DNA of 34,929 bases from Archaeoglobaceae archaeon (GTDB lineage Archaea > Halobacteriota > Archaeoglobi > Archaeoglobales > Archaeoglobaceae). A model generated the notes under the pieces. That model searched no databases. It was not told the DNA's origin and worked only from the letters and a program-made list of their open reading frames with translations. Shown here piece after piece: positions 22,692 through 24,494 of this stretch (within the stretch, counting starts at the first letter, position 1; every line of letters starts with the position of its first letter). The stretch lies in contig WAKM01000033.1 in assembly GCA_015523335.1 (NCBI GenBank), forward strand, positions 1-34,929. The letters run 5' to 3'. A program made the translations under genes and the position numbers.

Positions 22692-23414
22692 ATGTCTATG
22701 AAGGTAGTAGTCTGCGGATCCGTCGGATACGGCGGAATCGAAGAGATCAGAAGAATTCAGCGATTTCTTAAGGAGAGGGGTTACGATGTCTTGGATCAGT
22801 TAAAGCTGGATTACAGCGATATCGACGATTTCAGGGATAAACCAGAACTTTGGAGCGAAATAGTTCGAAACGACCTCGAATTCTGCGAGAAAGCGGATGC
22901 GATAGTTCTAATAGCAACAAACCCGAGCTTCGGGGCGATGGCTGAAATCGTCATTTCTTCGCTTAAAGGTAAGCCCGTCGTAGCTTACTGCCCGAAAGCG
23001 GTGAAATCTCCTTGGCCTCTTTACTTTGCAACATCGATAGCCAAGAACGATGAAGAGTTGATAAGAGCGCTGGAATCGATAAAATCTAAGAGGATAAGGA
23101 CGATTCCGAACGTATACGGAAAGCACGAGGCTGAATTCGTTTACGAAAACTTCACATGCATATGTCCTGTTACCGGAAGGAGGGACTATGCGGTGATCAG
23201 GATAAGATATAAGCCGGGGGATAGGCTAATAGAATACGAATCTCTCGACGAATATTTCAGAGACTTCGAAGATAAGGTGATGCACCACGAAGCTGTAGTC
23301 GAAAAGGTGTTCAACGATCTCCTAAGCGAACTAAAGCCCGAGAAGTTGGAGGTTATCGCAGAGTTCGAGGAGAGGAGCGGGGTTAAGGCGGTAGTCAGAC
23401 GCTCGACAGGTTGA
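22692..23414 (+). CDS. Nucleoside deoxyribosyltransferase-like domain fused to QueF-like domain
   Basis: A 240-aa two-domain protein. Residues 1-135 look like the nucleoside 2-deoxyribosyltransferase fold, with VVCGSVGYGG, KADAIVLIATNPSFGAMAEI (candidate nucleophile Glu85) and KPVVAYCP. Residues about 148-236 look like QueF, the preQ0 nitrile reductase family, and its archaeal amidinotransferase relative QueF-L that makes archaeosine in tRNA. They include ENFTCICPVTGRRDYA with the catalytic cysteine (Cys158) and aspartate (Asp165) at the family spacing, and a HHE (198-200) at the substrate-contact place. I infer a role in 7-deazaguanine tRNA modification, with the first domain acting on a base or nucleoside. 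It is followed 25 nt later by an HD hydrolase. Confidence 0.75.
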   Translation: MSMKVVVCGSVGYGGIEEIRRIQRFLKERGYDVLDQLKLDYSDIDDFRDKPELWSEIVRNDLEFCEKADAIVLIATNPSFGAMAEIVISSLKGKPVVAYCPKAVKSPWPLYFATSIAKNDEELIRALESIKSKRIRTIPNVYGKHEAEFVYENFTCICPVTGRRDYAVIRIRYKPGDRLIEYESLDEYFRDFEDKVMHHEAVVEKVFNDLLSELKPEKLEVIAEFEERSGVKAVVRRSTG

Positions 23415-23439: not shown

Positions 23440-23952
23440 ATGACATCGCATGACGACGGACACGTCGAAAGGGTGCTGAGGTGGGCTGTCTATCTTGCAA
23501 AAAGGGAAGGAGCGGATGTAGAAGTCGTGAAGAAGGTGGCTGAGCTCCACGATATAGCAAGGGATAAGCCGAATCATGCGATTGAAGGAGCGAAGATGGC
23601 GAGGGAGATTTTGAGATCGGAGGGATACGATGAGGAATTCATAGACAAAGTAGCTCACTGCATAGAAGCCCACTCTTTCAGCTCTGGAATAGAGCCGAAA
23701 ACTATTGAGGCAAAGGTCTTGAGCGATGCGGATAAGTTGGACGCAATGGGAGCGATAGGGATAGCGAGAGCGTTTATCTTCGGCGGAGAACACGGGAGGA
23801 GCATAGAAGATACCCTCAAACACTTCGAAGAGAAACTGCTGAAGCTGAAGGACATGCTTTACACGAAAACGGCTAAGCGAATGGCTGAGGACAGGCACAG
23901 GTTCATGGTAGAATTTTACGAGAGACTTAGGAAGGAGCTTGAGGAGCCGTGA
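23440..23952 (+). CDS. HD-domain phosphohydrolase
   Basis: A 170-aa metal-dependent phosphohydrolase of the HD superfamily. Ligand pattern is H...HD...D: His8 in DGHVERV, His37-Asp38 in ELHDIARD, further histidines at 73 and 78, and Asp96/Asp98 in LSDADKLDAMG. The substrate cannot be told; nucleotides are usual. The ATG at 23440 is the only normal start before an upstream in-frame stop, though no clear ribosome binding site precedes it. It lies 25 nt after the fusion gene and overlaps the next gene's GTG by 4 nt. Confidence 0.82.
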   Translation: MTSHDDGHVERVLRWAVYLAKREGADVEVVKKVAELHDIARDKPNHAIEGAKMAREILRSEGYDEEFIDKVAHCIEAHSFSSGIEPKTIEAKVLSDADKLDAMGAIGIARAFIFGGEHGRSIEDTLKHFEEKLLKLKDMLYTKTAKRMAEDRHRFMVEFYERLRKELEEP

Positions 23953-24494
23953 ACAGGAAGGTTGTAGCCTTCTGCGTATCTCTGCTTCCGCTCATGATTT
24001 CATCGGGCATGGTATACTCGATTCTGCCGATATACATTTCGGACGAGCTTAAGGCGAGCGATTTTGCGGTTGGATTGCTCTTCACGATCGGAGCGCTGAC
24101 GGGTGTTTTCACGTCCATCCTCATCGGCAGGATATCGGACAAGTTCGGAAGGATGCCCCTGATACTCCTTTCCCAGATAGCATTTGCGATAGTTATGCTC
24201 GCATACTCCTTCATAAGCTACTACATCTACGCTATTCCGATCCACGTTCTCGAAGGTTTCGCTTGGGCGACCATAGGCACGGTTGCTCCAGCTTACATAA
24301 CAGATTTAGCCGGTAGAGATGAAAGGGGGGAGTCTATGGGCGTATACAACACGGTTTGGAGCTTGGGTTGGGTTGTGGGCCCGATCTTAGGCGGTTTCCT
24401 TGCAGAATTCTTCGGTTTTAGGTTGATGCTCAGATTTGCGTTTCTAATGATAATCGTGGGTCTTATACTATCGGCCTTTGCTAATTCGAAGTGA
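23949..24494 (+). CDS. Half-length MFS transporter (six helices)
   Basis: A 181-aa membrane protein matching the N-terminal half of a major facilitator transporter. About six hydrophobic segments are seen, with motif A (GRISDKFGRMPL) between helices 2 and 3 and GWVVGPILGG in helix 5. Full MFS proteins have 12 helices and about 400 aa. Only 42 bp separate its stop from a convergent gene, so no second half exists here. It may be a truncated remnant, or a half-transporter working as a dimer. It starts at a GTG overlapping the HD stop. The substrate is unknown. Confidence 0.75.
   Translation: MNRKVVAFCVSLLPLMISSGMVYSILPIYISDELKASDFAVGLLFTIGALTGVFTSILIGRISDKFGRMPLILLSQIAFAIVMLAYSFISYYIYAIPIHVLEGFAWATIGTVAPAYITDLAGRDERGESMGVYNTVWSLGWVVGPILGGFLAEFFGFRLMLRFAFLMIIVGLILSAFANSK

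Follow-up and report, generated by a model that had tools for sequence, protein, structure and literature searches.

What does a QueF-like domain do when it is joined to a nucleotide N-glycosidase-like domain, in archaea that already encode the enzymes for placing archaeosine in tRNA? The question is raised by an open reading frame on the forward strand at positions 22692–23414 of the window, the whole 34,929-nucleotide stretch of Archaeoglobaceae DNA analysed here. The frame starts with an ATG at 22692, its stop codon ends at 23414 and it encodes 240 amino acids, with coordinates that agree with those of a first-pass annotation made from the letters alone. Profile and fold comparisons and orthologues confirm that it is a fusion of a domain of the nucleoside deoxyribosyltransferase superfamily that resembles Rcl/DNPH1 (residues 1–135; 22692–23096, forward strand) and a complete one-domain QueF-like T-fold (residues 136–240; 23097–23411, forward strand). 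It is not a chance open frame, because 14 further genomes share the architecture, at identities to the window protein down to about 50%. We found no earlier description of an Rcl-like/QueF-like fusion in the open-access literature, and we regard the protein as a variation on known enzymes, not as a kind of its own.

We evaluated each half using profiles, alignments and Foldseek searches with the corresponding part of a low-confidence AlphaFold model (mean pLDDT 59.5). Residues 20–103 match Pfam Nuc_deoxyrib_tr (PF05014) at 2.7e-5 and 24.7 bits, just under the curated gathering cut-off of 28.8, which a standalone relative of this half exceeds with 35.3 bits. A profile of 15 N-half relatives reached Rcl/DNPH1 entries of the PDB first (9.6e-4, for rat Rcl, and 2.6e-3) and a deoxyribosyltransferase at 0.13, and Foldseek matched the modelled N-half to a 2'-deoxyribosyltransferase (7o62; 1.1e-5, TM 0.75). 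The deoxyribosyltransferase fold proposed for residues 1–135 by the first-pass annotation is thus borne out at the level of the superfamily, with the refinement that the nearest kin are the Rcl/DNPH1 N-hydrolases and not the nucleoside deoxyribosyltransferases proper.

Asp61, Ser79 and Glu85 are conserved in the fusions and align with Asp69, Ser87 and Glu93 of rat Rcl, where we take Ser87 to be the phosphate-binding residue and the rat and human numberings to differ by an offset. The domain also carries motifs of its own, DFRD (46–49) and SPWP (106–109). In human DNPH1 (PMC10603095), D80 and E104 have catalytic roles as acid and nucleophile, and the glycosyl-enzyme is trapped when Glu55 is mutated to Gln (E55Q). 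In a low-identity sequence alignment, the fusion has Val6, Gln36 and Leu37 where the human enzyme has Tyr24, Glu55 and His56, and because of these replacements hydrolysis by the DNPH1 route appears doubtful as judged from sequence. On the same low-identity alignment, Gln36 stands where DNPH1 has its water-activating Glu55, and base exchange instead of hydrolysis would therefore be possible. This suggests the main alternative to the salvage role that we develop below, namely that the N-domain is a base-exchange transferase moving (deoxy)ribose 5-phosphate from a nucleotide onto a 7-deazaguanine base that the QueF-like domain has made or trimmed; the resulting 7-deazaguanine nucleotides would go into DNA, RNA or a small molecule. 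A glutamine at this site is what would be expected if the acceptor were not water, as the E55Q trap illustrates, and the superfamily includes true deoxyribosyltransferases such as the Foldseek match 7o62. The argument nonetheless turns on a single site in a low-identity alignment, acidic residues elsewhere, in the DFRD motif, could activate water, and no DNA-modification genes were seen beside the fusion, so that we regard base exchange as rather unlikely.

The C-terminal half is more readily placed. Residues 165–238 match Pfam QueF (PF14489) at 6.7e-18, and residues 136–236 score 88.7 bits on NCBIfam QueF-II (TIGR03139), narrowly above the 86.9 required. On the NCBI preQ(1) synthase model the fusions score 87–96 bits and QueF-L itself only 39.8 bits, which makes bacterial QueF, and not QueF-L, the nearer relative in sequence. 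The profile built from 12 C-halves likewise reached Bacillus subtilis QueF at 4.6e-19 and Pyrobaculum calidifontis QueF-L at 8e-7, and Foldseek matched the C-half of the model to QueF at 8.5e-9 and to QueF-L with a TM-score of up to 0.83 on the target. The first-pass annotation had described this half as QueF-like, with Cys158, Asp165 and an HHE motif, and we found these residues in place, the last as His198-His199-Glu200, within a T-fold. Cys158, Asp165, His199 and Glu200 are invariant among the 12 fusions aligned; Cys158 and Asp165 are the equivalents of the catalytic Cys55 and Asp62 of QueF, and Glu200 that of its substrate-binding Glu97. All 12 aligned fusions also read CICP at this site and so have a second invariant cysteine, Cys156, two residues before the catalytic one, while the Cys99 that forms a protective disulfide in bacterial QueF is absent.

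QueF binds NADPH through the motif E(S/L)K(S/A)hK(L/Y)(Y/F/W) (PMC5372742). In all 12 aligned fusions the corresponding stretch reads EYESL(D/E/K)xY: the first lysine is replaced by glutamate (Glu183 or its equivalent) in every one, and the second by aspartate or glutamate in most, with lysine kept in genera g7 and g10. The standalone QueFs used for comparison, from the same phylum and elsewhere, mostly retain the first lysine. Because the first motif lysine is glutamate in 12 of 12, the fusion falls, by its sequence, outside the QueF reductases as they have been defined in print, and the name preQ(1) synthase, which the NCBI model would give it, is likely wrong. P. calidifontis QueF-L, whose sequence as used here matches PDB 5jyx over all 109 residues, also has a glutamate at the position of the first lysine, and the fusion has the sequence features of QueF-L: a T-fold with equivalents of Cys21 and Asp28 and without the NADPH motif. 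It differs in keeping Glu181, the glutamate of the motif, and Arg228 near the C-terminus, both of which QueF-L lacks.

These residues bear on whether the C-half could be a nitrile reductase that makes preQ1 with a changed cofactor, for example NADH. Such an enzyme would fit the closeness to bacterial QueF (4.6e-19), the score above the NCBI preQ(1) synthase cut-off and the retention of Glu181, Arg228 and, in g7 and g10, the second motif lysine. It fits poorly with a first lysine changed to glutamate in 12 of 12 fusions and a second changed to aspartate or glutamate in most, and to our knowledge preQ1 has no known use in archaea; we consider this reading improbable.

Given the resemblance to QueF-L, which the first-pass annotation had raised as a possible source of archaeosine in tRNA, we examined the archaeosine pathway in the genomes that carry the fusion. 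ArcTGT (TIGR00432) and ArcS (PF17884, in frames of about 540 amino acids) occur in all 15, including the genome of the window, and RaSEA (TIGR01210) passes its cut-off in 14, missing only from G292, which is 72% complete. The fusion thus does not take the place of the archaeosine pathway, we rejected plain substitution for ArcS as the explanation, and a second enzyme to amidate preQ0 in tRNA is not needed. The distribution of QueF-L has been reported to be inverse to that of ArcS (PMC5485725), a pattern that the fusion, with ArcS in 15 of 15 genomes, does not follow. A QueF-L-type role is weakened accordingly. In its fullest form, this explanation would make the C-half an archaeosine synthase with preQ0-tRNA as its substrate, either duplicating ArcS/RaSEA or reserved for other conditions, and the N-half a module for oligomerisation or for binding tRNA or nucleotides. 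It would account for the lysine-to-glutamate change in common with P. calidifontis QueF-L, the fold match (TM up to 0.83) and the conserved Cys, Asp and Glu. It sits badly with the coexisting ArcTGT, ArcS and RaSEA, with an N-half that keeps Glu85, Asp61 and Ser79, and with a C-half whose sequence is nearer to that of bacterial QueF. A second, redundant archaeosine synthase for tRNA is not the simplest reading, and we judge it unlikely.

QueC, an enzyme of de novo synthesis, has a strong match in most fusion genomes. Among genomes at least 90% complete, a strong match is missing from 4 of 13 with the fusion and 7 of 32 without it (Fisher p 0.70), where some absences may reflect assembly gaps or divergent copies. 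We therefore rejected the idea that salvage is forced by lost de novo synthesis, as the absence of QueC is not associated with the fusion. Four nearly complete genomes (G146, G307, G014 and G249) have no strong QueC match despite having ArcTGT and ArcS.

The fusion is found in 15 of 59 Archaeoglobi genomes, belonging to 7 of 16 genera, and is absent elsewhere in a 394-genome sample of the phylum. Every PF14489 match in the Archaeoglobi sits in a fusion, and none of the 59 genomes has a standalone QueF. This patchiness, together with a copy in G249 whose QueF half is broken by frame changes and a Nanoarchaeota copy with no QueF half, might suggest a weakly constrained relict that no longer has a function. 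Intact fusions with only about 50–80% identity to that of the window have nevertheless kept the catalytic residues of both halves invariant, and a relict is very improbable. The Nanoarchaeota copy, an N-domain alone in a metagenome-assembled genome (L036:5001-5474), is 68% identical to the window protein over residues 3–145 and was likely either acquired recently from an Archaeoglobaceae relative or assigned to this genome by mistake in binning. Standalone N-domains also occur in three genomes of one other genus, with Asp61 replaced by His in both sequences aligned; the neighbours of the standalone relatives were uninformative. A viral origin was considered and rejected: scans of viral contigs gave no relative, and searches of phages and plasmids returned only standalone QueF or standalone deoxyribosyltransferase.

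We also considered the genes that accompany the fusion. At 23440–23952 on the forward strand, 25 bases downstream of its stop codon, lies a homologue of the YpgQ/YedJ-like HD nucleotide pyrophosphohydrolases, which matches PF01966 at 2.8e-17 and YpgQ (5dqv) at 8.9e-30 over residues 3–167. YpgQ hydrolyses NTPs and dNTPs with a preference for dGTP and dATP (PMC8177086). The HD gene adjoins the fusion throughout g1 (five genomes), in two genomes of g7 and in G057 of g2, and in one assembly, G081 (L048:6488-7741), the N-domain, QueF and HD domains follow one another in a single open frame of 417 amino acids. Members of this family occur in 54 of the 59 Archaeoglobi genomes, usually at loci that have no fusion. 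The earlier proposal that the HD hydrolase acts on the same compounds is therefore supported by adjacency in three genera and by the G081 protein but tempered by this wide occurrence, and the link is suggestive without being exclusive.

A half-size major-facilitator transporter of about 180 amino acids follows (23949–24494, forward strand), overlapping the end of the HD gene. Its association with the fusion, in g1 and g2, is looser than that of the HD gene; it is widespread in Archaeoglobi that have no fusion, and the two genes are paired away from the fusion in G244 (G244:C95) and G165 (G165:C9). Frames of the same length (about 180–200 amino acids) recur in many Archaeoglobi, so the gene is not a fragment, and perhaps its product works as a dimer. 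In both genomes of genus g16, an unassigned radical-SAM gene of about 310 amino acids (L054:5052-5981 and L056:6714-7649) overlaps the end of the fusion. A search for a riboswitch gave no Rfam family of any kind near the fusion, and the only Rfam matches in the window are three tRNAs.

These data allow us to propose a function. We infer that the fusion is probably an enzyme that converts 7-deazaguanine nucleotides to bases for salvage, an inference that extends to its substrates, direction, order of steps and salvage role. Our preferred reading, held tentatively, is that it has two active sites for 7-deazaguanine compounds, stands beside and not inside the tRNA archaeosine pathway, and returns the archaeosine base to preQ0. 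The HD partner, or the HD domain of the same protein in G081, would convert stray 7-deazaguanine (d)NTPs to monophosphates. In the Rcl-like domain, Glu85 would attack C1' while Asp61 protonates the base, which would leave, the (deoxy)ribose 5-phosphate staying bound before its release. The QueF-like domain would then take the base and hold it by Glu200. Its Cys158 and Asp165 would work at the C7 substituent by way of a thioimide and with no need of NADPH, either converting nitrile and amidine into each other or hydrolysing the latter. By this route the archaeosine base from tRNA turnover could become preQ0, or a substrate of QueC, and be reused by ArcTGT. Canonical ArcTGT reportedly cannot use the archaeosine (G+) base (PMC5485725), and recycling would therefore need conversion back to preQ0.

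Several observations point towards salvage: the N-half profile reaches Rcl/DNPH1 before other solved folds and the nucleophile, acid and phosphate serine are kept; the 12 aligned fusions share an invariant Cys, Asp and Glu in the C-half and have glutamate for the first motif lysine; QueF occurs in the Archaeoglobi only as the fusion; and the HD partner, adjacent in g1, g2 and g7, is homologous to YpgQ. Others count against it, in that reversal from amidine to nitrile may be unfavourable at cellular ammonia, replacement of the DNPH1 Tyr24, Glu55 and His56 equivalents makes hydrolysis by that route doubtful, the fusion does not track loss of QueC, and the HD family and half-size transporter are widespread without it. 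More broadly, we suggest, again with less than even confidence, a one-protein archaeal route for 7-deazaguanine nucleotides, which in G081 would start from the triphosphate and pass through the monophosphate and the free base to an altered base, and which would serve either archaeosine salvage to preQ0 or, through Gln36, base exchange that makes free nucleotides outside tRNA. The first-pass annotation had suggested that the protein performs a new or combined step in the metabolism of 7-deazaguanines, possibly salvage, and this is still the reading that we favour. We found no description of an archaeosine salvage route in the literature; if correct, the archaeosine branch would be the first such pathway, and the fusion gene offers a concrete candidate for it. 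The occurrence of a QueF-family protein whose NADPH motif is broken beside complete ArcTGT, ArcS and RaSEA would also extend the roles of T-fold nitrile enzymes.

Each part of the system has a known counterpart. Rcl/DNPH1 provides the solved structures nearest to the N-half, with an aligned Glu nucleophile, Asp acid and phosphate Ser; the human enzyme has Tyr24, Glu55 and His56, whereas the fusion has Val, Gln and Leu, its own DFRD and SPWP motifs and a QueF partner. For the C-half, the nearest match in sequence and fold is unimodular QueF, the preQ0 nitrile reductase of B. subtilis (PDB 4f8b), whose Cys55, Asp62, Glu78 and Glu97 have equivalents in the fusion; the altered NADPH motif, missing Cys99, additional Cys156 and fused state set the two apart. 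QueF-L of P. calidifontis (PDB 5jyx/5k0p) is, like the C-half, a one-domain T-fold with the Cys, the Asp, the His-Glu pair and the first motif lysine changed to glutamate, but the fusion has an N-glycosidase-like partner, coexists with ArcS/RaSEA, lies nearer to bacterial QueF and keeps Glu181 and Arg228. Homology to YpgQ/YedJ (PDB 5dqv, 3gw7) spans the entire HD protein encoded downstream, which, unlike them, adjoins an enzyme of 7-deazaguanine type or, in G081, belongs to it. Finally, bacteria salvage queuosine with the hydrolase QueK and with QueL. The proposed archaeosine salvage would share the logic of that pathway, in which a base is released and then converted to a form that the transglycosylase accepts; the proteins are unrelated as far as is known, and the fusion would hold both steps in one polypeptide.
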